From an uncultured Verrucomicrobia subdivision 3 bacterium (GTDB lineage: Bacteria > Verrucomicrobiota > Verrucomicrobiia > Limisphaerales > UBA11358), in NCBI GenBank assembly GCA_903850425.1, contig CAINLR010000165.1, forward strand, positions 1 through 64,000: 64,000 nt of DNA, given 5' to 3'. Under the pieces are notes generated by a model. It did no database searches. It saw only the letters and a list, made by a program, of their open reading frames with translations, and was not told the DNA's origin. Positions 46,249 through 61,708 of this stretch are shown in pieces. Each line of letters begins with the position of its first letter. Position 1 is the first letter of the stretch. Position numbers and translations under genes: made by a program.

Positions 46249-48262
46249 AAAAACATCTTCGGTAAACCACAATGTCCTCACCGATCTGCGTTACGAGAGC
46301 CAGAACCGAATCATTGCTTTCCGGGTCCATGGCTTGCACGTCTTCAAAGTTGCTGCCGCCGGTCGGAGAAATTTGTGAAACCACCGACAGCAGACCGTGG
46401 TTGTCCCCCAGGCACAAGGCTTCCAAAATGGCCGCGGGGAGAATTCCGGTGGAGTCCGGCGGCGGCGGGGAATGAGGCTTGGAGAATACATGCAGCTCGC
46501 CGCTGAAAGATTTTGTTTCAGCCAGTTTCGCGCGCAGGGTTTGCAAATCGGGCCAGGCTTCTTCGATGGCTCGCCAGTTTTTAATTGGCGGCACCGGTGG
46601 CGGCTCGAAGGAAAAAAAACGATTCAATTCCGGCCGCCACTGGCGAATCGTTTCGCTCGTCTGGAAGTGGACCGGCAGCGTGCCGGCATACAGCGGTGGC
46701 GCAGCCGCGCGTTCCGTATCTGCACGATAACCGTAGCTGCGGTTATAGGCCCGATTGTATGGATTATAGAGATCGACCGGCGCGGCTTGAATATCCAACT
46801 GCGCCCAGAGCGTGTCCTTGAGTTCCGTCACCGCCTGCTTGTCGCGGGCGGCAAAGACCAGCTCGTAGCGGTTCCAACGCAGCGTCGTTCCGTCCTTGGC
46901 CAGATCCACGACGGTCAACGAACGTCGCTGATCGCGCAGGCCGAGGTAATGATTGGCCATCAGCACCGTCCCGAGGGTGAAGGCGATGCTCGCGGCCGGA
47001 AACAGCAGCCAGGTGAACCGTCGCCGCCGGAAAAATCCCAGGATGAAATAGTCGGCCGGCCCAATCACGATCAGGAACACCAACAGCATTCCGATCAGCG
47101 CGGAAAACGGGATGAGCCGGACCGTCCTGGGCATTAACCGATTCATCAACTCGGCGCCAAGGTCGGTCGGTTGCACCCCGTAGGATAACGGGGCGGCGTA
47201 TTGTGGCCGGTTCTGGAAAAAGAATGGCTGCCCGCGCGCAACCGGAGGGTTTCCCGTTGAAGGCTTCTCCGGCAATTCCCAATGGCCCGAATCAGCGATG
47301 GCCCGCGCCTGGCCGCTCCGCAACTTCCACAAAAACATTGCGGCAGTTCGCCAGGTAGGATCGTTTAAACTGGTCTCCGATTCGTTCTTTGAGGAGACGA
47401 GGACGCTTCTGCCAACGCCCGTGTGCCGGCACAACATGTCCCTTTGCGGCGGCAGCAGATTCCCCGCACTGTCGCATATGAATGCTGGGCCGTTGGCGGA
47501 AGATTCGGCCAGTTGATTTAAAAACCGAACGTGATGGGCTTGAAGTCCTCCGCCCAGGAATACGCATACGCTGCCGCCCCCATTAACCCAACGAACCAAG
47601 GCCTGAAGCTGCCGTTCACTGGCGGCTTTGAATGCTGCCTCCTTCAGGACCATGACGTCGAAGGAGGTGTAAGCGAGTGGTTGCGCGGGCAAATCTTCCG
47701 GCGTCAGCCGCACCATGCTCGTCGTCAACAATCTTTGCGCGATGGTGTCCAATGGCGGCGCGAAGTGTTCCAGCCGCAAGTTTCGCACGAGGTCCGATGA
47801 CAGCTCAACCCCGGTGGTGGCAGCATCGCACCATCCCACAACCAATGACCGTTCGCGCGCCGTCGGCAAAGACAACATGGACGGCTCGATTTCCATCTTG
47901 TTTCCGGCCGTCACAAATTTCATGAGCACTTCCACCTGCGAATCCGAAAATGGCGCCGAAGTTGGCGGCAATAACATCCGGAACCGTTGCTCGCCGCCCG
48001 TCAACGCTAGGTCGCCGCTCCGGTATCGGCCGAGCACCTGATTCCCTTCGCGGAATTCCATCTCGAGCCGGCCTTCGAGAATGCGCGTCGAGTCCCATTT
48101 GAATCGCGCCTCGACCGGAATCAGCGAATGGTTTCGCGGACGAGGTCCCTGCGGAATCAGATCCACCTGGAGTTTTTCGGCGGCAAGTGCGACCGTCGCC
48201 AGTAGTTGGAGCGTAACCCAGACCCATGAAATATTTCTGACCCCGCGCGCCACCAGCTTCAT
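46238..48262 (-). CDS. GATase-like/DUF4350-type membrane protein
   Basis: 674 residues from ATG 48262, overlapping the previous stop by four bases. Signal or anchor helix at the N-terminus; a beta-sandwich region; a GATase1-like module around DLPAQPLAYTSFDVMVLKEA and LQALVRWVNGGGSVCVFLGGG without a catalytic triad; then two membrane helices with IGPADYFILGFFRRRRFTWLL and a final periplasmic part ending near the C-terminus. Proteins of this build occur with MoxR/VWA and ABC-2 genes in planctomycetes and verrucomicrobia. Function unknown. Confidence 0.75.
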   Translation of the reverse strand: MKLVARGVRNISWVWVTLQLLATVALAAEKLQVDLIPQGPRPRNHSLIPVEARFKWDSTRILEGRLEMEFREGNQVLGRYRSGDLALTGGEQRFRMLLPPTSAPFSDSQVEVLMKFVTAGNKMEIEPSMLSLPTARERSLVVGWCDAATTGVELSSDLVRNLRLEHFAPPLDTIAQRLLTTSMVRLTPEDLPAQPLAYTSFDVMVLKEAAFKAASERQLQALVRWVNGGGSVCVFLGGGLQAHHVRFLNQLAESSANGPAFICDSAGNLLPPQRDMLCRHTGVGRSVLVSSKNESETSLNDPTWRTAAMFLWKLRSGQARAIADSGHWELPEKPSTGNPPVARGQPFFFQNRPQYAAPLSYGVQPTDLGAELMNRLMPRTVRLIPFSALIGMLLVFLIVIGPADYFILGFFRRRRFTWLLFPAASIAFTLGTVLMANHYLGLRDQRRSLTVVDLAKDGTTLRWNRYELVFAARDKQAVTELKDTLWAQLDIQAAPVDLYNPYNRAYNRSYGYRADTERAAAPPLYAGTLPVHFQTSETIRQWRPELNRFFSFEPPPVPPIKNWRAIEEAWPDLQTLRAKLAETKSFSGELHVFSKPHSPPPPDSTGILPAAILEALCLGDNHGLLSVVSQISPTGGSNFEDVQAMDPESNDSVLALVTQIGEDIVVYRRCFYGN

Positions 48263-50139
48263 TTCCAACCTCCCGGCTTCTTTTGAAAGAACCACCATTC
48301 AACCATGAGCACGCCCAGCGCAACCAGCAGCAAAGCCGGCCATAAAGGCCAGTCCGTTTTCACCAGCGTCGTGGCGGCGGCAACTTGCAGACGTTCGTTG
48401 AACTCGATTTGCGCGACGCCCGCCAGCGTGGTTTCGCTCGGCGAAAGCAGACACGCACCCACGCGCCGGCGTTGCGTGCCGTTTTCCAAAACGGAATAGT
48501 AGCCCGCTTGGGCGGCGGCTACGCCGGAAACAAATCCATGATCGTCGGCCGTCATCGCTTCGACAGTTTGCTTCGGGGTTTGAATTTGATAGTGACCATG
48601 CGGCGTAAGCGTCAACGGCGGCAGCACGCCGGTGCGATAAGCCAGCGCTTCCGCCAAACCGGCCTGCTCCAGCGCTGCTTGCACAACGTTTGCAACGAAG
48701 ATCGGAAACCCGACGCGATACGGCAGCGTCGAGCGGTCCGTGTGAAACAGAAGCTCGAACCGCAATGCGTCGGAATCTATTTTCCGCAGCAGCAGCGGTC
48801 CGCGCTGACCATGGATCAGCACTTCGTAACCGAGATTTTCCAAATCGGCTTCACCGGCGTTCGCGGCGAAGCGCGGCTGGTCGAGCACGACCAGATCGGC
48901 CAGTTGCACATGTTGCAGCACAGACGCGTCGCGCCGCCAATCCACCACCGCCGATCCATTCGTGCCGAGCTCTATGAAGCGTTGCAATTCGGAGGGAATA
49001 AAACCGACAGTCAACTTTGTTCGCGCCACAAGATCCATATCCTGCGGGCGATCACTCATCACCAGATCGAACGCGCCGCTGGCTTCATCGCTGGTTTCCT
49101 GCGGGAACAACTGGATGCCTTGAATGCCCTGCAACGCGCGCCGATACGAGAACAACGTTTTGGGAACAAACACGCGCAGCGGCCGCGATTCCGGCAACTC
49201 CAGATACGCCTGGTTGTCCGTTGCGAGCGAATCGAATCCGTCCGGCCTCAACTGGACGCGCAATGACGACGCGCGATTATCTTTGGTTTGAAACACCAGG
49301 CGCTGCGCATGACTGCGCGCGAGGGTGATGCGTTCGTTGGCAATACTGTTTCCGTCTTGAAATAATTCCACCGTTGCGTTGCCTTCGGCGTCAGCCGAGC
49401 CTTCAATCTGCACGAACACATCCCAGCCGCCGCTCACCGCGCGCCGGGCGCTCAGCGCGGTGATGCCCAGGTTCGGCCCCGCTGGCGACAGCCGTTGATA
49501 ATTCAATTTGAACGACAGATCGAAATTCACGCGCGGCGGAAAATTGCCGTCGGAAAACAACAGCACTTCATCGAACGGTTCGCTGCGCCCCAGCGCCTGC
49601 ACGAGGCGCAACGCCTGCTCGAGATCGCTGGCGACATCGGCGACTTCGATCTGGCCGAGCGCGTCGCGCAACAGCCGCTTGTTGTTCGTGAACCCGGTGA
49701 GCTTGCGCGGCGTGCTATCGAAGGAAACCAGACACAATTCCTGGCCCGAGGACAGGCCGTCAATCATCTCGCGCACGCGACGCTTGGCTTCGGCGAGACG
49801 GCTGGTGCCGCCCGGTTTGTCCAGCGCCCCCATGCTCGCGGAACAATCAACGATGACTGGCAGGCGACGATTTTTGCCCGGACCGCCGCGCCAGAACGGC
49901 TGCAGTGCGGCCAAAATCAAAAACAACAAAATCAACATTTGCAGCAGCAGCAGCAGGTTGCGTTTGAATTTCTGGAACGGCGAGTTGACGCGATGGTCTT
50001 GCAACACTTGCCGCCACAAAACAAGCGAAGGAATTTCCGCCCGTGGCCGCTTCAATTTCAAAAAATAAAACAGCACCAGCGGCACCAGCAGCGTGAGCAG
50101 CCAGAGCTGACTGAGTGATTGGAAGCCGCCCCAGTTCAT
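48259..50139 (-). CDS. BatA-like VWA membrane protein
   Basis: 626 residues from ATG 50139, whose ATGA overlaps the stop of the DUF58 frame. N-terminal BatA-type region (LWLLTLLVPLVLFYFLKLKRP) with a second helix (LLLLLQMLILLFLILAALQPF), then a von Willebrand A domain with intact MIDAS (VIVDCSASMGALDK and a later SDG), a long beta-rich part and a C-terminal helix (LWPALLLVALGVLMVEWWFF). VWA proteins next to MoxR are thought to be assembled or remodelled by it. Part of the same train. Confidence 0.85.
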   Translation of the reverse strand: MNWGGFQSLSQLWLLTLLVPLVLFYFLKLKRPRAEIPSLVLWRQVLQDHRVNSPFQKFKRNLLLLLQMLILLFLILAALQPFWRGGPGKNRRLPVIVDCSASMGALDKPGGTSRLAEAKRRVREMIDGLSSGQELCLVSFDSTPRKLTGFTNNKRLLRDALGQIEVADVASDLEQALRLVQALGRSEPFDEVLLFSDGNFPPRVNFDLSFKLNYQRLSPAGPNLGITALSARRAVSGGWDVFVQIEGSADAEGNATVELFQDGNSIANERITLARSHAQRLVFQTKDNRASSLRVQLRPDGFDSLATDNQAYLELPESRPLRVFVPKTLFSYRRALQGIQGIQLFPQETSDEASGAFDLVMSDRPQDMDLVARTKLTVGFIPSELQRFIELGTNGSAVVDWRRDASVLQHVQLADLVVLDQPRFAANAGEADLENLGYEVLIHGQRGPLLLRKIDSDALRFELLFHTDRSTLPYRVGFPIFVANVVQAALEQAGLAEALAYRTGVLPPLTLTPHGHYQIQTPKQTVEAMTADDHGFVSGVAAAQAGYYSVLENGTQRRRVGACLLSPSETTLAGVAQIEFNERLQVAAATTLVKTDWPLWPALLLVALGVLMVEWWFFQKKPGGWK

Positions 50140-51040
50140 GCGAGCCACCCCCGTCGCCGCATTTGATCGAACAGCACGGATTCCACCGGAGTCGCCGAGC
50201 TGACCGGCAGAAACCGGCCCGACCGTCGCTGGCACAACAGCGCGAGATCGTCCTCCAACCGCTGCCGATATTCCTGGTAAAGATTGAAAAGATCTGCGCC
50301 CGAAGAAACGTCCAGCGTCTCCTGGGTTTCGGAATCCACCAAACGCAAATCATTCGCCACGTCTGGCTCGAGCTCGCGCGGACTCAAAATTTGAATCCCC
50401 AGCGGTTCGAGGCCGGCGGCGGAGAGCAAATTAAATCCGCGCTTGAGATCACCAAAGTGAGGAAGTCCGAAACAATCACGCAAACGCCGCGGCCCCGGTG
50501 ATGCAGCAGGAGCGATTCCACCGCGCGATCCAGCGGAGCGTCGCCGTGGCCTTCCAGATTTTCGATGAATTGAAACAGCGTTCGCATGTTCGCGCGGCCA
50601 CGGCACGGCGGCAAACGACCCGGCGCACCGCCGGCTTGATGCGAAGCGTAGGCGCTGACGCGTTCGTTGCTCAACAAGCCCATCACACCAAACGCCGCCG
50701 CCAGCGGTTTGGCGAGGTTCAGCTTGTCTTCAAATTTCATCGAAGCCGAGGCGTCAATCAGCAACACGACATGACGTTCCTCTTCCTTGTGAAATTGTTT
50801 CAGGTAAGGCCGGTGCAGCCGCGCAAAAATATTCCAGTCCACAAACCGAGTGTCGTCGCCGGGCGCATAGTCCCGGTAATCGCAGAACTCGGTGCTCGTG
50901 CCGCCCTTGCCAGCAAGATGTTCCCCGCGGCTACGGCTAGTGCGCCGGCCGACCGGATTAATCCGCAATCGTTCCAAGCGATCGAGCACGCCGTTGGTCA
51001 ACAGCGGGGTCATTTGCGGTCGTGGCGCGAGCGGTTGCAT
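50136..51040 (-). pseudogene. DUF58 protein split by a one-base frameshift
   Basis: The first frame, from ATG 51040, encodes a normal DUF58 N-terminus: RRTSRSRGEHLAGKGGTS.EFCDYRDYAPGDDTRFVDWN and a VWA-like LLIDASASM, up to VCVIVSDFL, then drifts into TLVISSADLICS and stops at 50384. The -1 frame picks up exactly there with HFGDLKRGFNLLSAAGLEPLGIQIL and continues to FDQMRRRGWLA, stopping at 50136. Adding one base around 50452-50466 (CTCACTTTGG) would restore one ~300-residue DUF58 protein. The distal stop still overlaps the next start as ATGA. There is no good slippery heptamer, so a mutation or sequencing error is more likely than programmed frameshifting. Confidence 0.85.
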
Positions 51041-51041
51041 T

Positions 51042-52040
51042 TCAAGCCTCCACCGGAACTTGTTCGACCAGTTCTTTCACCAAATCGAGCACACGGATGT
51101 TGTCGGCCTGGCCGTCGTAGCTCAACAACAGACGATGGCCGAGCACTTCCGGCGCGAAAATGCGAAGATCCTCCATGGCAACATGCGCCCGGCCGGCCGC
51201 CAGCGCGTGCACCCGGCCACCGCGAATCAGCGCCTGACAACCACGCGGACTCGCGCCCAATTTGATGTAGCGCTTGATCCGCTCCGGCGCAAACTCGGAA
51301 TCGGGATGCGTCGCAAGCACCAAGCGCACGGCGTAATCGCGAATGGGGTCCGCCACGACCACTTTGTCCAGCACCTGCCGCAATTGCTGGATGCGCGCGG
51401 CATCAATAATCTTCGCGACGGTTGCCGTTTGCCGGATGATGGTGCGCGTGACCATCTCGTTCAATTCAGCGCGGCTCAAGCTGGCAACGTTGATCTTGAA
51501 CATGAACCGGTCCAGTTGCGCTTCCGGCAGCGGATACGTGCCTTCCTGCTCGATCGGATTTTGCGTGGCCAGCACGAAGAATGGCGGCTTGAGTTGGTGC
51601 GTGACGCCGCCGGTGGTGACGGACCCTTCCTGCATGGTTTCAAGCAAGGCGGATTGCGTTTTCGGCGTCGCGCGATTGATTTCGTCGGCCAGCAACAGTT
51701 GCGTAAAAATCGGTCCACGCCGAAATTCAAAACGATACGCACCGTCGGGACCGGCGGTCATGATGTTTGTTCCGATGATGTCGGCCGGCATCAAGTCGGG
51801 TGTGAATTGGATGCGGCGGAATTCGAGATCCAGCACGTGCCCCAAAGTTTTGACGAGTTCCGTCTTACCGAGTCCGGGCACACCTTCGAGCAGGACGTTG
51901 CCGCCGGCCAATAGTGCGGTGACCGCACATTCCACCACGCGCTCCTGGCCCACGATAACCTTGTGGACTTCCTGAAGAATTCGCTGGAAGTCGTTTTTGA
52001 ATTGGCTGGCCTCAGCCTGCAATGTTTCCAAGTCGCTCAT
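51042..52040 (-). CDS. MoxR-family AAA+ ATPase
   Basis: 332 residues. Walker A LEGVPGLGKTELVK, Walker B LLLADEINRATPKTQSALLE, sensor-1 LATQNPIEQEGTYPLPEAQLDRF and the C-terminal lid with SPRGCQALIRGGRVHAL. MoxR ATPases act as chaperones for VWA proteins and for maturation of partner complexes. The gene ends one base before the DUF58 start, and the VWA partner genes flank it on both sides. Confidence 0.95.
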   Translation of the reverse strand: MSDLETLQAEASQFKNDFQRILQEVHKVIVGQERVVECAVTALLAGGNVLLEGVPGLGKTELVKTLGHVLDLEFRRIQFTPDLMPADIIGTNIMTAGPDGAYRFEFRRGPIFTQLLLADEINRATPKTQSALLETMQEGSVTTGGVTHQLKPPFFVLATQNPIEQEGTYPLPEAQLDRFMFKINVASLSRAELNEMVTRTIIRQTATVAKIIDAARIQQLRQVLDKVVVADPIRDYAVRLVLATHPDSEFAPERIKRYIKLGASPRGCQALIRGGRVHALAAGRAHVAMEDLRIFAPEVLGHRLLLSYDGQADNIRVLDLVKELVEQVPVEA

Positions 52041-52064: not shown

Positions 52065-55058
52065 TTATGGTTTCGTGTCATTGTTTTTGTCTCCCTCTTG
52101 CCGTTTCCGTTTCATCGCCAGCAATCGCTCGGTGGTGGAAGTCGCGGATTCCTGCGGCTGCGTGGGCTCCGTCACAACCGATTTTCTGGCTGGCTCAGAT
52201 TGCGCCGGTCGCGGCGAAACCGATGGCGAAACTACCGACACCGACTTGCGGCCTGCCTCGGTGGTCTCGCGAACTTTTTCTTTGAGCCGCAACAACGCGC
52301 CCAGCGTTTCGGTTGATTCAGTCTTGCGTCCGGCTCCAAACCAGCCGCGCACAACGTTCCAGTCCAGTTGCACGCGTCGCACACCGACATCCAGCGGAAT
52401 CATGCACGCGAGCAAAATCAGTAACAGGTTCACGATGGATTTGGAGGTTTCCTTCGGCTCGCGCGGAATGGCGAACAACTCCTTGCCGCTTTCCTGTCCG
52501 GAGAGAATCCGTCCGCCGGTGCGTTCGGCGATTTGGCGCAGCATGATGGGATCGGAGCGGAACCGGAGATACTCAGGCGAATAGGCGAGCACAAATCCGC
52601 CCAGCGTCTGCTCGTTGCGCCCTGCGCCAACGCCCGCGATGGCGATCTGGTAGCGCCCCTTTCCCCACAGCGGGAAGCGGGCTTCATAGCGGCGCGGTGC
52701 AACCTGCTTCAGCGACAGGCTGGTCTGGCGATCGCGCGGCCCGTTGATCTGTGCTTGAATTTCCAACATCGATTCCTGCGAATGGTAATCCTCAACCAGA
52801 ATCACGCCTTCGTCGCCCGAAGCAAACGTTTGCAAATTCAAATCGGAATGCTGCTCCACGCGCGAGATTTCAATCATGAGTTGCTTGACGAAGGATTCGT
52901 ATTGGCTCCATTGCACCCAATCCGAACCCCAGTTGGGCGACAGGTCCGAAGTGAACGCCGCCGTTTTGCCCAGCCCAAATCGCCACGTCGATAACACTGG
53001 ATTAACTTCATCCTTCGCCGGTCCTTTGAGAATGGTGACCGAGCGGGCTTTGGGCGTGGTCAACACATAAGCATGCAATGGCGGCATCACATCAATCCCT
53101 TTGAGCGCGGGCGAAAAAAACTCGACCTTCGGCACAAACGTGCCGTTCTGAATCATGCTTCGCTTCAGCGTCTTGGCCTCCTTGATGAAAATGGAGGGCA
53201 ATGCGTGGGGATCCATCACGAAGTAATGTCGGCCGCCGGTGACGCCGGCCAGCGCCTGCATTCCCGAAATATCCATGCCGCCATGCGGATTGATCACCAC
53301 GGTCGAAACGCTGATTTTTTCGGCGAGAAATTGGTTCACGAGTTCCGGCGTTGGCGGCGAAGGATCGCCGTCGCTGATGATGATCATGTGCCTGGCTGCG
53401 GCATCGCTGGCTTTGAGGCCGTTCAAACCCATCTGCATGATGCTTTGAAAACTGGGCATGTCGCTCGGCTCGCATTGATTGATCAAAGTGACGAGGTGAT
53501 CGTATTCGCTCGCAGGCGTCAGCGGAAAAACCCATTGGTCGCCCCAGCCCCCACCACCGCTGTTCCCATAAATCAACACGCCCACTTCATCCTGCGCGCC
53601 GAGCACGCGAATCGCTTCTTTGGCAATGCGCTTGGCCCAGACGTTGCCCTCGGGAAATTCGCACGTGTGCAACACAATCGCCAGCGCGCCTTTCGGCAGA
53701 ACTTTTTTCTGCGAAACATCCATGTCCACCGGCAACGCTTCCTCGATGGGAGTGCGATGATAGCCGCCCGGACCGAAACTGTTCTTGCCGCCGACCATCA
53801 GAAATCCGATGCCCTGATTGTAAACGGCTTCGCGCAACGCTTGCATCTGCACCGGATCGAAACTGTCTGCTGCAACATTCACAAACACCACGCAGTCGTA
53901 GGGCATGAGCGACATCGCATCGCGCGGAAATTCGAAAGCAGGCCTCGTTTCGACCAGGCGTTTGCCCGCCCGGAGCGCCTTGACCAACGTTTCATAATCA
54001 CGCGGATCGCCTTGCGGATCGGTCACCAACAGCACTTTGCCTTCGCCTTTGAGGTAGAGGAAATTGATCGCTGTGTTGTTCTCCTGCCAGCCGTCCTGAC
54101 CCGTCGGCGGTTCAATCGTGGCGACGTATTGGTAATAACCGGGTTCGCGGAGATAGAGCGGCAGGGCATAACGATTCTTGCCGCGATCATAATGCACGCT
54201 TTGTTCGGCGATGACTTTGTCGTTCTCGCGCAGGACCAATTTGCCATCGCCCGCTTGCAGTGAATTCAAAAGGACACTCGCCTCGTAAGTTTCCCCGATC
54301 TTGACCTGGCGCGGCAGATCAAGGCGTTCGAGCCAGACTTCGTGCTGATATTCATATTGGATGGGCAACACGTCCACGGCGACGTGGCGCGACTTGAGAT
54401 CGTCCAAAATTCCGGCGACGTTGCCTTCCGTTTCCACGCCGTCGCTGGCGAGCACGATGCGGCCTTGTTTGTCTTCGGGCACCACCGCCGCCGCCAGCGA
54501 AAGCGCTTTGGCCAGATCGGTCCCATCTTTGGCGACGCGCGCGTTGATGACCTCAAACGGGAAGCTCAGCCGAGGCGGAAGTTCCACCGCCGCGTCGCGA
54601 CCGAAAACCACGAGGCCCGCTGCGTCCTTTTCCGGTTTTGCGCCAGCCGTTTTGAGAATGTAGCTCAACGATTGATCGGAGACTTTTTCACCCATCGAGT
54701 CCGACACGTCGAACGCGTAGATGAGCGCCAGGCCGTCGTTTCGCTTGACCACGCGAGGCTCCGTTAGCGCGAGAATAAAAAGTCCCAGCAGGGACAACCG
54801 CACCAGCAGCGCGAGGGTTGAGCGAAATCCGCTCAAGCCGCTGTAGCCCGCCAGTTGCAGCCACCACACCCAGAGGCTCAAGCTCAACAAAGCGAACGGC
54901 GTGAGATTGGAAAATTGCACCCGATGCCGGAGGCTGACAAACAAACAGCCACCGACGAACCCAATCAAAAAAATCAGCAGCGGCAAACCGGCACCGATCG
55001 TCAACCGCTTGCGCGGCGGCGGCACGAGGTTCAACAGCCATTGGCGCGCGTTCAACAT
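52065..55058 (-). CDS. Large membrane protein with two VWA-like domains
   Basis: 997 residues. Helices near 20-40, 55-75 and 85-105 precede a VWA domain with MIDAS (YAFDVSDSMG and LASDGVETEG). After beta-sandwich regions comes a GATase-like module (YDCVVFVNVAADSF) and a second VWA-type domain whose MIDAS DxSxS is replaced by AIVLHTCEFPEG although IIISDGDPSPP is kept. A third beta part, a C-terminal helix (VNLLLILLACMIPLDVGVR) and a charged, Ser/Thr-rich tail follow. It begins inside the end of the preceding gene (7-base overlap) and is 24 bases from MoxR. Confidence 0.88.
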   Translation of the reverse strand: MLNARQWLLNLVPPPRKRLTIGAGLPLLIFLIGFVGGCLFVSLRHRVQFSNLTPFALLSLSLWVWWLQLAGYSGLSGFRSTLALLVRLSLLGLFILALTEPRVVKRNDGLALIYAFDVSDSMGEKVSDQSLSYILKTAGAKPEKDAAGLVVFGRDAAVELPPRLSFPFEVINARVAKDGTDLAKALSLAAAVVPEDKQGRIVLASDGVETEGNVAGILDDLKSRHVAVDVLPIQYEYQHEVWLERLDLPRQVKIGETYEASVLLNSLQAGDGKLVLRENDKVIAEQSVHYDRGKNRYALPLYLREPGYYQYVATIEPPTGQDGWQENNTAINFLYLKGEGKVLLVTDPQGDPRDYETLVKALRAGKRLVETRPAFEFPRDAMSLMPYDCVVFVNVAADSFDPVQMQALREAVYNQGIGFLMVGGKNSFGPGGYHRTPIEEALPVDMDVSQKKVLPKGALAIVLHTCEFPEGNVWAKRIAKEAIRVLGAQDEVGVLIYGNSGGGGWGDQWVFPLTPASEYDHLVTLINQCEPSDMPSFQSIMQMGLNGLKASDAAARHMIIISDGDPSPPTPELVNQFLAEKISVSTVVINPHGGMDISGMQALAGVTGGRHYFVMDPHALPSIFIKEAKTLKRSMIQNGTFVPKVEFFSPALKGIDVMPPLHAYVLTTPKARSVTILKGPAKDEVNPVLSTWRFGLGKTAAFTSDLSPNWGSDWVQWSQYESFVKQLMIEISRVEQHSDLNLQTFASGDEGVILVEDYHSQESMLEIQAQINGPRDRQTSLSLKQVAPRRYEARFPLWGKGRYQIAIAGVGAGRNEQTLGGFVLAYSPEYLRFRSDPIMLRQIAERTGGRILSGQESGKELFAIPREPKETSKSIVNLLLILLACMIPLDVGVRRVQLDWNVVRGWFGAGRKTESTETLGALLRLKEKVRETTEAGRKSVSVVSPSVSPRPAQSEPARKSVVTEPTQPQESATSTTERLLAMKRKRQEGDKNNDTKP

Positions 55059-55699
55059 TTGGCCAACCCTTTCTCCAGTCGAATGCTCGCCAACACCATC
55101 GCAACACCAAAAACCAGATGCGCCATTAGCGTGACCATCACGAACGTCTCCGTGATGCGAATACCGAATGTCGCCGGATAAGGCGTGAACAGCATGGCGA
55201 GTTCAAGCCCCACCGCGAACACGATCGCTACTGGCCAGCGGCGACGCCATTGTCCGTTTATCAGCGCGCCATACATGACGCCAAACGTGGCGCCATTGCT
55301 GAAATGATATAACCAGCCGGTCACGTTCGCCGCGAGCGAATGGCCGTCCGCCTGACCAAGAATCATCGCGCCGAACACCGGAAATACTTTGAACAAGGGC
55401 AGCGCGGGAATGACGCGGGTGAGTCCGAAGCTTTTTGAAAACACAAATGGCAGGCGGAAAATATCGTAAGCCACGGCCGCCAATAGACCGGCGATTAAGC
55501 CGATGAAAATTATCCGGAACGCCTGACCATTGCCGCGGCTGCGGTCGTGAAGCGCGAAGGCGAGCAACGCGATGCCGGCCGGTGCAAACACTGCAAACGT
55601 GCAGTCGCGCATCGGCCACAGGCGATACATCTCGCCCAGCAAACTCGCGATCGAAGTCGCGGCCAGCAGGAAAACCATGATGCGTGGCAGTGGTTTCAT
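55052..55699 (-). CDS. Hypothetical membrane protein, 215 residues
   Basis: Seven or so hydrophobic segments: MVFLLAATSIASLLGEMY, CTFAVFAPAGIALLAFAL, IIFIGLIAGLLAAVAYDIF and several more. Between them lie VFSKSFGLTRVIPALP and WLYHFSNGATFGVMYG. No family recognised. It overlaps the VWA gene start by 7 bases and so belongs to the train. A structured repeat (55736-55852) lies just upstream, between it and the NHL part of the ATPase fusion. Confidence 0.75.
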   Translation of the reverse strand: MKPLPRIMVFLLAATSIASLLGEMYRLWPMRDCTFAVFAPAGIALLAFALHDRSRGNGQAFRIIFIGLIAGLLAAVAYDIFRLPFVFSKSFGLTRVIPALPLFKVFPVFGAMILGQADGHSLAANVTGWLYHFSNGATFGVMYGALINGQWRRRWPVAIVFAVGLELAMLFTPYPATFGIRITETFVMVTLMAHLVFGVAMVLASIRLEKGLAKC

Positions 55700-55873: not shown

Positions 55874-57700
55874 TCATCGCGTTTGCAATTCCACGACGCG
55901 GCGGTTGCCGGTGTCGGCCACATAGATATTTTTTTGCGAATCCACCGCAATACCCCAGGGCGTGGCAAATTGCCCGAGGCCGGTGCCGGGCGTGCCATAG
56001 CGCGCCCGCACGCGCCCACTCAAATCGCATCGGGTCACGCGGCTGGCACCATACTCGACGGCATACAACGTGTCGTCGGCACCCAGTTTCAAATCGTAGG
56101 GGAGTTTCAACGCCAGCGACTGCTCGCTCGAACCAAGAATGTTTAGGAATTTCCCATCATCCGTGAAGACCTGGATGCGATTGTTGAAGGCGTCGGCGGC
56201 ATAAATTTTTCCGTCGCGCCAAACGAGACCGGACGGGCGCTGAAATTCGCCGGGCTTGGTTCCAAACGCGCCGAACGCCAAAAGAAATTTTCCGTCGGAA
56301 GTAAATTTCTGCACACGATCATTGGAGCCGTATTCGGCGATGTAGAGATTCTCCTGCGCATCTTTCGCCACGGCCACGGGATAAATAAATTCGCCCGGCC
56401 CCTGCCCTTCTTTGCCGAAAGTTTTAAACGTCTTGCCGTCCGCATCGAAAATTACGACGCGATGATAATGCGTGTCGCCCACGACGACGCGGCCGTCGCG
56501 CAGCACACAGACGCCTTCCGGTTTGCCAATTTTACAGTCGGGCATGCGCCACTGGCGCGCGATGGAACCATCGGCCGCGTAAACCAGCACGCGACCGGCT
56601 GTGTCCAAAGCGATGACTTCGCCGTGGTTCCCAATGGTCAGACTGCGCGCGGCCGGTTGCAACGATCCTTCCGGCGGCACCGACCACAAATGAACCGCTG
56701 CGACGGGAATCGTGGGGCCGGTGGCGGACGGGCGGCAGCCGGCGACGTGCAGGCAAAGTAGCAAGCACAGCAACGTCTTCAAAACGATGCGCGTGCCGCG
56801 CGCAAGCTGATTGGAGGAGGGCCGATGAAAAAATGTGCGGACGGCTCCGGTCGGTTCGTGCCGCACTTCCAGTTCGGCCACCGCGCCTTGAAAGCGCGAT
56901 GACTCAACTACGAGTGGCGATCGATGGTCAGGCTGGACTGTGATTTGTTCCGGACGAACACAGCGCGCCGCCAGTTCTTCGCGGCGCAACCAGAGTCGAG
57001 CGGCTTCTGGCTCCAGCCAATTGGCTTCGCCGAGACAGCCGGCCAATTCTGGTGTCGCCGCGCGCCAATATAAAGTTTCAACCTCGCCATTGAAATGCAC
57101 GCAGCCGTCGCGCAGACAAATCACGCGCCGCGCCTCGGCCAGGACGGGCCGCGGCGAGTGGGTTGCGAAGATGAGCGAAGTATTTTTCTCCGCCAGATGG
57201 CGGCGGATGATCTGCCAATATTTGCCGACGCGGCTGGGGTCCACATGTTCGAGCGGTTCGTCCATCACCAGCACCGCCGCGTTGGCGGCCAGCGCGCGCG
57301 CGACCGATAGCCGCGACTGTTCACCCGCCGACAGGGTGGCGGGGCGACTGTCGCAGCGAGTTGTAAGATCAAATTTATCCAGCCACTGTTTGGCCTCGGC
57401 TTCCTGGCCGGCGATCTCTTCAGTGACCGCTGTGATGTGTTCCAGAACCGTCAGGTGCGGCCATAAACCGCCATCAGCCGGCACCCAGAACAAGGGAATC
57501 GGATGCGATCCGCGCTTGAATTCGGCAGTAATTTTTCCCGCATCGGGCCGCTCAAAGCCGACCAACAAGTTTAGCAGTGAAGTTTTGCCGGCGCCTGAAT
57601 GTCCGAGCACCGCCGTGACGCCGGGTTCGATTTGCAGCGTGAGGTCGCGCAAACGCAGCCCCAGACCGACGCTCTCGAGTTGCCACAACGTGTTTTTCAT
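55874..57700 (-). CDS. Ferric-type ABC ATPase fused in frame to an NHL-repeat lipoprotein-like domain
   Basis: 608 residues from ATG 57700, overlapping the permease stop as ATGA. Residues 1-~300: ABC ATPase of the FbpC/PotA kind with Walker A GHSGAGKTS, signature LSAGEQSRL, Walker B VLVMDEPLEHVD, switch His in FATHSPRP and a TOBE-like end at GTRIV. From residue 307 the frame runs on without a stop into LKTLLCLLLCLHVAGC, a textbook lipoprotein signal with lipobox, and then about six NHL/beta-propeller repeats (YPVAVAKDAQENLYIAEYG, RPSGLVWRDGKIYAADAF, TPWGIAVDSQKNIYVADTG). A TTG at 56782 could initiate the lipoprotein separately (302 residues). Either an internal start or a true fusion; the sequence does not decide. 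Confidence 0.85.
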   Translation of the reverse strand: MKNTLWQLESVGLGLRLRDLTLQIEPGVTAVLGHSGAGKTSLLNLLVGFERPDAGKITAEFKRGSHPIPLFWVPADGGLWPHLTVLEHITAVTEEIAGQEAEAKQWLDKFDLTTRCDSRPATLSAGEQSRLSVARALAANAAVLVMDEPLEHVDPSRVGKYWQIIRRHLAEKNTSLIFATHSPRPVLAEARRVICLRDGCVHFNGEVETLYWRAATPELAGCLGEANWLEPEAARLWLRREELAARCVRPEQITVQPDHRSPLVVESSRFQGAVAELEVRHEPTGAVRTFFHRPSSNQLARGTRIVLKTLLCLLLCLHVAGCRPSATGPTIPVAAVHLWSVPPEGSLQPAARSLTIGNHGEVIALDTAGRVLVYAADGSIARQWRMPDCKIGKPEGVCVLRDGRVVVGDTHYHRVVIFDADGKTFKTFGKEGQGPGEFIYPVAVAKDAQENLYIAEYGSNDRVQKFTSDGKFLLAFGAFGTKPGEFQRPSGLVWRDGKIYAADAFNNRIQVFTDDGKFLNILGSSEQSLALKLPYDLKLGADDTLYAVEYGASRVTRCDLSGRVRARYGTPGTGLGQFATPWGIAVDSQKNIYVADTGNRRVVELQTR

Positions 57701-59061
57701 CGCGGTGCCCACCAACGCCTGGTTCCCAAGGCCAGCAAAAAAATGCTGATCGGGGCGGCGAACGCCGCACAGGTCATCGCGGACAACGCGGCGATCTGGC
57801 CGTAGTGCATGAGATTGTAAAGTCGCACCGTCACCGGCGTCATGCCGATGGGCGCGAGAATCGAGGACACCGTCAAATCCCAATAGGCCCAAGTGAACAG
57901 AAGAACCAGGGCCCAGAATTGTCCGCTCGTGCTGAGTGTCCAGGTAAGCTCGCGCACCGCCCGCGATTTTTTCATCAGCGTGGTCATATGAAAAGCGCTT
58001 CGATGCGCGGACATTTCCAACACCCGTTTCAATACCAGCGCCATTGGAAGCAAAACCATACCCAGTGTCAACACCAGTGGCACCGGCGTGCTGCGCAGCC
58101 AGATCAGGCCCGGCAGTTGAACCGCCGCCAGCACGGCGAGCGACAACACCAACGGGCCAAGCAGTCCGGCAAAGACGCCTGCGAGCAAAATCATTTTGCC
58201 ACCCGTTGCAGCCAGCCGGCGACCGCGAGCGGCGGCACCTAGTCCGAATGCCGCCAGTCCGGCCAGCGTGCTGGCACCGGCGGCGAACAAAAGGCTGGCG
58301 ACGATTTCACGGCTCAACACAAAATTTTCCAAGAGCAGACCGAATCCGCGAAGCGTTCCCCACAGCACCATCGCAGCGGGAATCAGCAGGACGAAAATAA
58401 ACGCGAGCGACAGATGGCACCAGCCAAACCATTGGTGCGATCGCGGTCCAGTGCTGCGCCGCGCGGGAATGATTTTTGGCCGACCCAACACGACGAATGC
58501 CGTCGCGATCGCCGCAGTTTCGCATAACAACGGACCGAGCATCCGGCGCAAGGATTCACCCAACGCCAGCCCGCCGGCATGCGCGTCGAACAGCGCGACG
58601 GTCCAGGATTTCACAACCATCAGCGAAGCCATTTCGAACTCGGCGAACGCGCACAGAAACACGACGGTAAAAGCTGCGATGGGTCCCCGCGCGCAGCCGG
58701 CGCGGAGGAGAAATGCCCAGTCGCCGAATTTGGAACTCGCCGAAGTGAGCCGGCGACAATGCATGGCTTCGGCAGAAATGGGCGACGGCGTGAAATGGAG
58801 AATGACGGCGGCAATCGGCGTGAATTTCCACCAGAGCAGCGCCGAATAAAAAACGGTGTTGACGGCGGGATGATGAATGAGCGACAGCGAGAAACTCGCG
58901 TAGGCGTAACCGGTGAGGAGAACAGGCGTGAAATACGGCGCGAGCAACAGAATCCAAACCCTGCGCCGAACCGATTGTCGGCGGTCGGCAAGCAAGGTCG
59001 TTACCAGTCGCGCGGCGGCAACCGCGAGCAACCCGACGATCATGCTCCGCAGTAAAGTCAT
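57697..59061 (-). CDS. Ferric/2-aminoethylphosphonate-type ABC importer permease
   Basis: 454 residues with two blocks of about six helices, the double-permease build of FbpB-like proteins, though shorter than usual because the N-terminal block starts late. The EAA-like loops include AEFEMASLMVVKSWT and MSAHRSAFHMTTLMKKS. Overlaps the binding protein gene by four bases (ATGA at 59061-59058) and its stop overlaps the ATPase start. With these neighbours it forms a complete importer. Confidence 0.85.
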   Translation of the reverse strand: MTLLRSMIVGLLAVAAARLVTTLLADRRQSVRRRVWILLLAPYFTPVLLTGYAYASFSLSLIHHPAVNTVFYSALLWWKFTPIAAVILHFTPSPISAEAMHCRRLTSASSKFGDWAFLLRAGCARGPIAAFTVVFLCAFAEFEMASLMVVKSWTVALFDAHAGGLALGESLRRMLGPLLCETAAIATAFVVLGRPKIIPARRSTGPRSHQWFGWCHLSLAFIFVLLIPAAMVLWGTLRGFGLLLENFVLSREIVASLLFAAGASTLAGLAAFGLGAAARGRRLAATGGKMILLAGVFAGLLGPLVLSLAVLAAVQLPGLIWLRSTPVPLVLTLGMVLLPMALVLKRVLEMSAHRSAFHMTTLMKKSRAVRELTWTLSTSGQFWALVLLFTWAYWDLTVSSILAPIGMTPVTVRLYNLMHYGQIAALSAMTCAAFAAPISIFLLALGTRRWWAPR

Positions 59062-60110
59062 TGGAGATATTCCGATTTAAGCCACGCCAGACATTCGGCG
59101 TTCGCTCCGCCAAGATCGGCGAGCGACACCCCGTCGGCGGCCCAGCGTTGCAGTTGCTTCACGTCATCGGGCAGGCGGGCATTTCCCACCGGGCCAAGCG
59201 GAATCTGGCGTGATTTGGCGGACGCGAGCGCCATTTCACTTTTTTCCGAAAGGAGAAAATTCACGAGCTTTTGCGCTTCAGTTAAGTGTCGCGTGCCCCG
59301 AATTATTGAAACCGTGTTTGGAATGCAAATGGTTTTTCCGTTCTCCAATCGCACGGGCAGCATTGCCACCGGTTTGCCTTCATCGCGCGCCTCAAAAAAA
59401 TCATCGGTGTCGCTCCAACCGAGATCGCACACGCCGGCGGACACCAAATCTTTTACCACGGAATTCCCGTCAACCTCGCGCAGATGCCGCGCGCGGCGGT
59501 CGCGATCCCAGGCGAGCAGTTTGGCGCGGCCCCACAATTTCCAGAGGAGGGTGTATTGCGTGCGGGTCGTGCCGTAGAGCGGTTTGGCAATGACCATGCG
59601 GTCCAGGTCTCGGCTTGAGGCTTGTTGAATCGCTTCCTCCGTCGGCGCGAGGTGATTCGTGTTGACGATCCACAGGCGCAATCGCGCGGCGAATCCGGCC
59701 CAGCGCCCATCCGCATCTTTGAACGCGGCGGGAATTCTCTCGTAGCCGCTGCCTCGATAAGGGAGCAACAGTCCTTCGTCAACGAGTTGCAACGTGCCGA
59801 GCACTTCGTTGTTCCAAAACACATCGCAGCGCGGATTCGCTTTTTCCTGCAATAACAATTCCACCAATCCGAGAGACTTCGTCGCCTCGGTATCATAGCG
59901 CACCGCAACGGAAATTCCGGTTTGCCGCTCGAAGTCGCGCAGGATTTGATCCGCGTAAATGGAATCGTGAGCGCAGTAAACCACCAATGATTTTTGCGAC
60001 GGCGACCAGAGCAACCAATAAGCGCCAAACAAAAGCGCCACGCCGGCGGCCAGCGCCGCCAGCCGACGGATGAACCCGCGATCAAGGTTTGGCGTGTGCG
60101 CGGGAGCCAT
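59058..60110 (-). CDS. Extracytoplasmic solute-binding protein (FbpA-like)
   Basis: 350 residues: an uncleaved-looking N-terminal membrane segment (LAALAAGVALLFGAYWLLW) after a basic start, no lipobox, then a periplasmic binding fold starting SLVVYCAHDSIYADQILRDFERQTGI, with CDVFWNNEVLGTLQLVDEGLL, GRWAGFAARLRLWIVNTN and NTVSIIRGTRHLTEAQKLVNFLLS. This is the ferric-iron/thiamine/phosphonate class. The iron-binding tyrosine pair is not obvious, so the ligand is left open. The first 29 bases overlap the coiled-coil gene. Confidence 0.87.
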   Translation of the reverse strand: MAPAHTPNLDRGFIRRLAALAAGVALLFGAYWLLWSPSQKSLVVYCAHDSIYADQILRDFERQTGISVAVRYDTEATKSLGLVELLLQEKANPRCDVFWNNEVLGTLQLVDEGLLLPYRGSGYERIPAAFKDADGRWAGFAARLRLWIVNTNHLAPTEEAIQQASSRDLDRMVIAKPLYGTTRTQYTLLWKLWGRAKLLAWDRDRRARHLREVDGNSVVKDLVSAGVCDLGWSDTDDFFEARDEGKPVAMLPVRLENGKTICIPNTVSIIRGTRHLTEAQKLVNFLLSEKSEMALASAKSRQIPLGPVGNARLPDDVKQLQRWAADGVSLADLGGANAECLAWLKSEYLQ

Positions 60111-61683
60111 TGGGCAGCGTGTCGAAGTATTGCTTGATGGACGTTTGGTATCCCGGCGGAATTTGTTCCTGCACCACCGCCTCGCTGGCTTGCTGACGAA
60201 CGTCCTGAAGCGCCCGCAAATATTCCTCCCGCGCAGGGCCGGCCTCGGAGACTTCCCGTGTCTTCCATTCCATCAGCATCCGGCCCGGCTGCAGCAGCGA
60301 CGCGGATTTCTCCGGCTTGAAACCGCTCGCCGCAGTGTCATCGCCGTAAGGACGCGGACCGTAACCGTAGCCCGCATTCATGCCCATCCCGGCACAAAGC
60401 GATTTACACTGGCCTTCGCAAAATGCCGCATAGGCGGCGAGATCGCCGAGTTGCATAAAATTTTGCCCATCCAATGGCTTCAAGTTGTGCAGCGTCTTCG
60501 CCAACTGCAATGCCTTGAGCGCGTCTTCGATATTCTTTATGTCTGCCATGGCCTTGGCCAATTGCTGAAGCTCTGCCTGCGTCAGCTTCAAGGAGTCGGA
60601 CATCCCTTTCATGGATTCACCCGAAAGCTCCGGCAAATTGGACAAGGCAAGCTGCTCCAAAGCACGCTGCAAATCCGTGTCCACCGCTTGCGAATTCAAC
60701 TGCTGATCCAGCGTGTCCTTGAAACTTTGCAGGCGATCCATGAGCTCCTGGCGGAGCTTTTCGCGCTCCACGGGATCTTTGGACGCGGCCAGTTCCTGCG
60801 CCTTCTGTTTGAGTTCATCCAACTCCTTGCTGGCGCTGGAGACATCGCCTTTCTGCAAATCATTGCGCAATTGCTGCGTCTTGGTCGGATCGGCCAACCC
60901 AAAACTTTGCGACGGCGGCGGCAGGTTCAGCGCGTTCTTGAGTTTTTCTTCGCTGGTTTGTTTCCAGAGCTGGCCCAGGATTTTTTGTTGTTCGTTGAGC
61001 CGCGCCAGCGTGCCGGCTTTGTCGTTTGGCTTGGCGTCCTGAAATATTTTTTCGAGACTGGCCACGGCTTGCTTCACGGCTTCGGTTTGTTCGCCAGCGC
61101 GTTTCTGCTCGAGGAGCGCAGCCCGCGTGTCGGTGGCTTTGCTGATTTGACGCACCCGCTCGCGTGGTTCGGCCAATTGCTTTTGCCGTTGGTGCAAGTG
61201 GAACGGATCGCATTGCGGCAACCCGTAAACGGCCAGACTCAAAACGGCCAGCGCCGCGCAGAGTCGGAAGGTGTCGCGCTGCCATTGGTAAGGCACAATA
61301 TTTTGAGGAAGCACGTTCGCAGCGCGCTGATCAGCATCGTTCAATACCAAGTCTTGATAGGCACCGAGGGAATTCTCGATCAGCGCAGCGGTCAGAAACA
61401 AATCCTGCGTGGCCATCTGGGTGTCCGCCCATCGCGCGGCGTCCTTAACTCCCGTGCGAGGATAAAAAATCCACGCCAGAACCAAAGCGCCAACGGGTAA
61501 AACCACCAGCGTGACCGGCGTAAACCATGCGGGCAGCAGCCCAAACAAACGGGAGACCAGCAGGGCCGAAGCGTAAAAGCCCATCGCCAACCGGAAAAAT
61601 AATCTCCACCGTCGGGCAAGCGATACGACCTGTTGCCGCCGACTGACTCGCCGAAGAAAATGTTGCACGACGATTGAACTCAT
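60082..61683 (-). CDS. Membrane-anchored coiled-coil hypothetical protein
   Basis: 533 residues from ATG 61683 (a GTG at 61698 is possible). Two N-terminal helices (MGFYASALLVSRLFGLLPAW and VLPVGALVLAWIFY), a third at FRLCAALAVLSLAVYGL, then a long Gln/Lys/Glu/Leu-rich periplasmic or cytoplasmic coiled coil (~190-400), a short Cys-Gly-Tyr segment (FCEGQCKSLCAGMGMNAGYGYG) and a conserved-looking end (REEYLRALQDVRQQASEAVVQEQIPPGYQ). The last motif and the layout resemble DUF4175-like proteins of planctomycetes. It overlaps the binding-protein start by 29 bases. Confidence 0.75.
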   Translation of the reverse strand: MSSIVVQHFLRRVSRRQQVVSLARRWRLFFRLAMGFYASALLVSRLFGLLPAWFTPVTLVVLPVGALVLAWIFYPRTGVKDAARWADTQMATQDLFLTAALIENSLGAYQDLVLNDADQRAANVLPQNIVPYQWQRDTFRLCAALAVLSLAVYGLPQCDPFHLHQRQKQLAEPRERVRQISKATDTRAALLEQKRAGEQTEAVKQAVASLEKIFQDAKPNDKAGTLARLNEQQKILGQLWKQTSEEKLKNALNLPPPSQSFGLADPTKTQQLRNDLQKGDVSSASKELDELKQKAQELAASKDPVEREKLRQELMDRLQSFKDTLDQQLNSQAVDTDLQRALEQLALSNLPELSGESMKGMSDSLKLTQAELQQLAKAMADIKNIEDALKALQLAKTLHNLKPLDGQNFMQLGDLAAYAAFCEGQCKSLCAGMGMNAGYGYGPRPYGDDTAASGFKPEKSASLLQPGRMLMEWKTREVSEAGPAREEYLRALQDVRQQASEAVVQEQIPPGYQTSIKQYFDTLPNGSRAHAKP

Positions 61684-61708
61684 TCTCTCAATCCCCACTC
61701 AGACGACC

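Follow-up and report, generated by a model that had tools for sequence, protein, structure and literature searches.

On the minus strand of the window (the whole stretch of 64,000 nucleotides that was analysed) a frame of 608 residues runs from an ATG at 57700 to a stop at 55874 and is stop-free throughout. This ORF (55874..57700, −) encodes an ABC ATPase, a TOBE domain, an internal lipoprotein signal and an NHL propeller. The preliminary description had placed an ATPase, a lipoprotein signal and a propeller in one frame beside genes for a binding protein and a permease, and both statements hold.

Domains and neighbours of the fused gene

The ATPase part comprises residues 1-246 (56963..57700, −; Pfam and alignment A2), with ABC_tran matched at residues 17-150 (85.1 bits, cut-off 25). 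The segments GHSGAGKT, LSAGEQ and VLVMDEP and a histidine are present, which we take to be Walker A, the signature, Walker B and the H-loop. At what is presumably the Q-loop (motif PADGGLW, residues 74-80) the Gln is replaced by Ala; alignment A2 has Ala or Ser at this position in the four window-clade ATPases, as against Gln in eight ATPases of family f90. Replacement of the Q-loop Gln in ABC ATPases usually weakens coupling. The TOBE domain, residues 247-307 (56780..56962, −), was matched by Pfam TOBE_2 with 22.5 bits (cut-off 21). Its last strand lies at residues 304-309 in the predicted full-length model (mc3f47cf63705), which is of medium quality (pTM 0.54); the fold search was run with the model of the mature part. 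Judged by its domains, the ATPase is a TOBE-type ABC importer ATPase (PotA/PhnT-like), except for the Q-loop Gln. The PhnT equivalog (2-aminoethylphosphonate) was rejected for it, at 95 bits against an NCBIfam cut-off of 499.

The propeller, a predicted mature lipoprotein of 287 aa (55877..56737, −), was assigned from Pfam, predicted structure and fold matches. NHL repeats were matched with 77.3 bits (cut-off 20), the best stretch being residues 578-603, and the mature part was modelled with confidence as a propeller (mean pLDDT 94.4). The best solved structural matches were the NHL domains of Thin and TRIM71, followed at lower rank by peptidyl-alpha-hydroxyglycine amidating lyase, virginiamycin B lyase and PknD (1rwi). 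These matches indicate fold, not function. The ScyF equivalog was rejected for the propeller (142.5 bits, NCBIfam cut-off 350).

The junction of the ORF reads GTRIVLKTLLCLLLCLHVAGC, and up to the predicted lipidation site GTRIVLKTLLCLLLCLHVAG, followed by C (Cys322). A short hydrophobic segment ending in VAG directly before this Cys precedes the propeller. The internal lipoprotein signal, residues 305-321 (56738..56788, −), was assigned from the sequence and from its alignment in 12 ATPase fusions; the lipobox Cys322 (56735..56737, −), the predicted lipidation site and first mature residue, is invariant among these. The lipobox had been put at about residue 320, in agreement with this position. 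Because the TOBE domain ends at about residue 307 and its last strand spans the same point, the signal starts at the ATPase end without a spacer. The signal described earlier was confirmed, with the correction that the TOBE domain abuts it directly. A lipoprotein-type hydrophobic stretch and lipobox Cys are thus present, but at residue 322 of the frame and not at an N-terminus, barring a start at the TTG codon of Leu307 (56780..56782, −).

The genes in the window are ordered 538-aa protein, binding protein, permease, ATPase::NHL, 215-aa protein, VWA/GATase1-like protein, MoxR, DUF58 and BatA. The permease gene (57697..59061, −) shares 4 bases (ATGA) with the start of the ATPase gene. It was assigned from its position beside the binding protein and the ATPase and from its conservation there, and matched no Pfam family at E 0.1. 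The solute-binding protein (59058..60110, −) is PhnS-like by SBP_bac_8 (26.7 bits, marginally below the cut-off of 27) and NCBIfam PhnS; the PhnS equivalog itself was rejected (E 8.3e-14; 51 bits, cut-off 395). The scores for both PhnT and PhnS thus fall below their equivalog cut-offs and assign no substrate. Upstream of the binding protein lies the 538-aa protein (60082..61698, −), with coiled-coil and membrane character by eye only, no Pfam family above cut-off, and relatives at the same place in the split loci L039 and L040.

Downstream of the fused gene, the 215-aa protein (55052..55699, −) has membrane character by eye. Its sole relative was found in L173, also between the fused and VWA genes, and none was found in L037, L038 or L039. 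The 997-aa VWA/GATase1-like protein (52065..55058, −) is the usual downstream neighbour of the propeller. It is followed by a MoxR-type AAA ATPase (51042..52040, −; AAA_3 207 bits, bpMoxR 47.4 bits against a cut-off of 27), a DUF58 gene (50136..51040, −) and a BatA-like VWA protein (48259..50235, −). The DUF58 gene is in two frames in the assembly, with a break near 50,500; it is whole in L037 and L038, and the break is either an assembly error or a real frameshift.

Fused and split relatives

The protein was found in 4 of the 49 genus genomes (the window's included; E up to 1e-60) and is fused in all four. The three homologues, in G026, G023 and G020, share 84, 79 and 76% identity with the window protein and are likewise stop-free, which rules out chance and a local sequencing error as the source of the fusion. 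L037 and L038 (Verrucomicrobia MAG) are two of these three. The residue is identical in all four genes at 188 of 286 ATPase, 16 of 27 junction and 186 of 269 NHL codons, and most of these kept codons show synonymous change. In a phylum-wide sample of 387 genomes, five other than the window's matched; the open frame surrounding the propeller is 318-411 aa long in these, and in one the match contains a TGA.

Split ATPase and NHL relatives were found in L039 and in L040 (Chthoniobacteraceae; identical in sequence to G617 of family f90). Family f90 belongs to the same class as the window's genome, and 15 of its 40 genomes matched: eight fused, six split and one cut by a contig end (G641). G649 was counted as split; its listed open frame is 718 aa long, but four stops lie between its two parts. 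Fused and split forms coexist inside the single genera g177 and g221. On a 19-row tree of ATPase plus NHL, which cannot separate gain of the fusion from its loss and in which 5 of 16 inner branches are unresolved, at least five changes of state between fused and split were counted. The fusion is dispensable on this distribution, with 6 of the 15 f90 matches and L039 split. It had been suggested that relatives always split, or a sequencing error removing the stop, would speak against the fusion; both fused and split relatives exist, and the fusion recurs in the three genus genomes and in f90. In the six split junctions read (L199, L200, L201, L220, L221 and L039) an ATGA stands at the ATPase end, and L201, L220 and L039 likely have their own lipoprotein start further downstream.

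Elsewhere in the window's order, in other families, the propeller is fused to an ABC permease instead. The L012 protein, a permease-NHL fusion, was searched against 320 genomes of the order and gave 166 matches, four of them of the window's own type; 128 of the other 162 (L045-L172), all outside the window genus, were inspected. Because these loci came from a score-ranked hit list, fused ones are favoured among them. A single stop-free frame holds permease, linker, lipobox and NHL in 112 of the 128, two of these coming from single-contig genomes (G128 and G104). Four contain both parts without a shared open frame: in L100 the frame is broken inside NHL, L146 has a gap of N, in L147 the parts are ∼2.7 kb apart and in L164 they are split, side by side. 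In the remaining 12 the stretch holds the propeller but no permease; one of these, L153, is cut off by the contig end. The earlier view of the fusion as a one-gene oddity was accordingly too narrow, since permease-lipoprotein fusions are common in the order's other families and ATPase fusions recur in f90.

The f2 loci (L155-L162, L171 and L172) carry a free propeller lipoprotein, with no binding protein or permease found alongside; in G049, of the same family, the permease is on another contig than the propeller. In an NHL tree of 84 rows, built by a quick method with 56 of the 112 permease fusions and with 37 of 81 inner branches open, the f2 free propellers nest within the permease-fused set, which suggests that they were released from a fused ancestor. 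In this tree long stems separate the ATPase-type from the permease-type propellers (1.99 and 1.22 changes per column). With two long stems and different partners, the ATPase and permease fusions are independent, and the transporter-lipoprotein fusion arose more than once.

The usual order at permease-type loci is MoxR, DUF58, BatA, binding protein, permease::NHL and VWA. Among 82 fused loci (L075-L172), many of whose stretches end before the outer genes, relatives were found of VWA in 72, the binding protein in 70, BatA in 63, DUF58 in 47 and MoxR in 28. A motif scan found no ABC ATPase in the fetched stretches of these 82 loci; the ABC ATPase must lie elsewhere or be missing. The VWA gene adjoins the propeller in 9 of the 10 f2 loci, which are without a nearby transporter gene, and was not seen in L156, where the contig ends soon after. 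No VWA relative was found in the stretch of L040. Because the f2 propellers keep the VWA gene without a transporter, the VWA-MoxR module may be the propeller's closest partner, with the transporter as carrier or client.

Linker, lipobox and internal start codons

All 112 permease fusions have a Cys in the linker, preceded by G in 100, A in 7 and S in 5. In 110, a Cys following G, A or S stands 7-20 residues before NHL, as against 0-8 in eight shifted control windows. A loose lipobox pattern was matched by 111 of the 112 and the strict lipobox consensus, [LVI][ASTVI][GAS]C, by 52. Between the permease match and the Cys, K+R exceeds D+E in 110 of 112 (means 4.0 and 0.45; after the Cys 0.97 and 1.73), a charge bias that fits a crossing from inside to outside. 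The hydrophobic peak has a median of 2.25 and is weak, under 1.5, in five. The distance from permease match to Cys is 21-201 residues, over 50 in 12 of 112, and all are in frame. The long in-frame linkers of L148, L149, L150, L163, L165 and L169 (up to 201 residues) are repeat-like by eye.

In the non-fused loci (16, with L100 left out) the Cys lies 9-13 residues before the propeller in 15 of 15. As the distance from Cys to propeller is alike, free and fused forms would yield much the same mature protein. A start codon is present at −25 in 7 of the 10 f2 loci.

Start codons (ATG, GTG and TTG) upstream of the signal were counted in the 112 permease fusions, with permease bodies as the null. Within codons −35 to −13 relative to the Cys, ATG was present in 35 (null mean 35.3), ATG or GTG in 68 (null 82.9) and any of the three in 90 (null mean 100.7), leaving 22 with none; in the wider stretch from −40 to −10 some start codon occurs in 102 (null mean 106.9). 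No start-codon position is plainly enriched upstream of the signal, and a start with a four-base Shine-Dalgarno core is present in eight. Internal starts as a general rule were rejected, as codon frequency, codon position and Shine-Dalgarno cores all lack support against background. Start codons do not exceed the permease-body background, and the 22 fusions and the ATPase fusion L213 have none; an internal start is thus not the general explanation.

Proposed processing and known systems

The reading we favour, with reasonable but limited confidence, is that the ORF encodes a polyprotein, the internal lipoprotein signal of which would be Sec-inserted, lipidated by Lgt and cut by LspA to give a transporter subunit and a free propeller lipoprotein. 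From the sequence, a ribosome translating the ATPase meets no stop until the end of the propeller. The ATPase-TOBE part would fold in the cytoplasm and the hydrophobic segment would act as an internal signal for the Sec translocon, with its N-terminal side in and its C-terminal side out. The propeller would then cross the membrane, Lgt would add diacylglycerol to Cys322 and LspA would cut before it. This would leave the ATPase with a short hydrophobic tail and release the NHL propeller as a free lipoprotein, made 1:1 with the transporter and delivered to the same place. The C-terminus of a permease of this type would lie inside, so in the permease fusions the signal would act as one more membrane segment. 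Within the cluster of binding protein, transporter, MoxR and VWA genes, the propeller probably binds a ligand or partner as an extracytoplasmic lipoprotein. That the fusions form a polyprotein class, in which LspA serves as processing protease and an ABC subunit (ATPase or permease, by independent fusions) carries lipoprotein cargo behind an internal lipobox, is given a little over an even chance.

An uncut chain would leave the cytoplasmic ATPase (or permease) tethered through one membrane segment to an outside propeller, as in the sensor kinase PknD or in binding-domain-fused permeases. The fused frame and the domain order would agree with this, and PknD, with its outside propeller, is among the structural matches. 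A plain membrane segment needs no Cys preceded by G, A or S, yet every one of the 112 permease fusions has it, and homologues in their own frame carry such a Cys at a like distance. The f2 propeller, moreover, is free of a permease, as is that of G049 with its permease on a separate contig. The permanent tether raised in the preliminary description is disfavoured on these grounds and rated improbable. An error of assembly or sequencing, or a decaying gene, joining two ordinary genes has a parallel in the frameshifted DUF58 gene nearby, but the same fusion is present in other assemblies and another family, permease fusions occur in single-contig genomes, and amino acids are kept across ATPase, junction and NHL codons, mostly with synonymous change; its probability is put close to nil.

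The lipoprotein could also be made mainly from the TTG at 56782, as had been proposed, or from a like codon, with the missing stop merely giving some of the ATPase a propeller tail. TTG AAR is kept in 4 of 4 genus sequences, and ATG or GTG is found near the joint in seven of the eight f90 fusions. As evidence of a start, conservation of the TTG is weak because 4 of the 50 all-leucine columns of the four window-clade genes are entirely TTG; TTG makes up 86 of 252 Leu codons. Against an internal start, the 32 codons of L213 between its FFHRP motif and the lipobox Cys contain no ATG, GTG or TTG, the permease fusions show the 22 empty stretches and no enriched position, and a ribosome that has begun on the ATPase has no stop codon before the end of the propeller. 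This explanation is considered unlikely. For the window protein itself, a permanent tether or a start at TTG 56782 is possible.

PMC7159879 describes MoxR-vWA-beta-propeller ternary conflict systems, in which MoxR, vWA and propeller are co-encoded, verrucomicrobia included; the propeller is fused C-terminally to the vWA protein and the MoxR P-loop is often GXXXTAKS. The window MoxR resembles these in passing bpMoxR (Pfam PF20030; 47.4 against 27 bits), though AAA_3 scores 207. The window's gene set differs in that the propeller, a lipoprotein, is joined to an ABC subunit, and in that the MoxR P-loop is an ordinary GVPGLGKT. No propeller family was found at E 0.01 (Pfam) in the window VWA proteins at 55058-52065 and 50235-48259. 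Membership in the conflict systems was rejected: the bpMoxR score is above its cut-off, with neither the vWA-propeller fusion nor the GXXXTAKS motif found.

A literature search returned no title on an internal lipobox, FbcH or a permease-NHL fusion; subscription papers were mostly outside it, so this is no proof of novelty. Lipoprotein signals are taken as N-terminal and signal prediction looks there, so genes with an internal lipobox would be missed or annotated as odd fusions. The fused and split forms in single genera would serve as natural experiments on why a cell locks two membrane proteins into one chain.

In ABC importers of the OpuA and GlnPQ type the substrate-binding domain is permanently tethered to a transporter subunit. 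The window gene likewise joins an extracytoplasmic domain genetically to a transporter subunit, but here a lipobox marks the joint and the binding protein has its own gene. In mycobacterial PknD (1rwi), too, a cytoplasmic enzyme, in its case a kinase, is followed by one membrane segment and, outside, by a propeller with this fold; the window protein has an ABC ATPase, not a kinase, and a lipobox Cys at the joint. Bradyrhizobium FbcH is reportedly a cytochrome b/c1 polyprotein with an internal Sec signal, cut by signal peptidase I, with a haem protein as cargo. The window ORF is like it in being one chain with an internal signal between membrane and outside subunits, cleavage here being only predicted. 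It differs in having a lipobox in its signal and a propeller as cargo, carried by an ABC ATPase or, in the permease fusions, by a permease. Were the predicted cut to occur, the lipoprotein machinery would also serve to process polyproteins.
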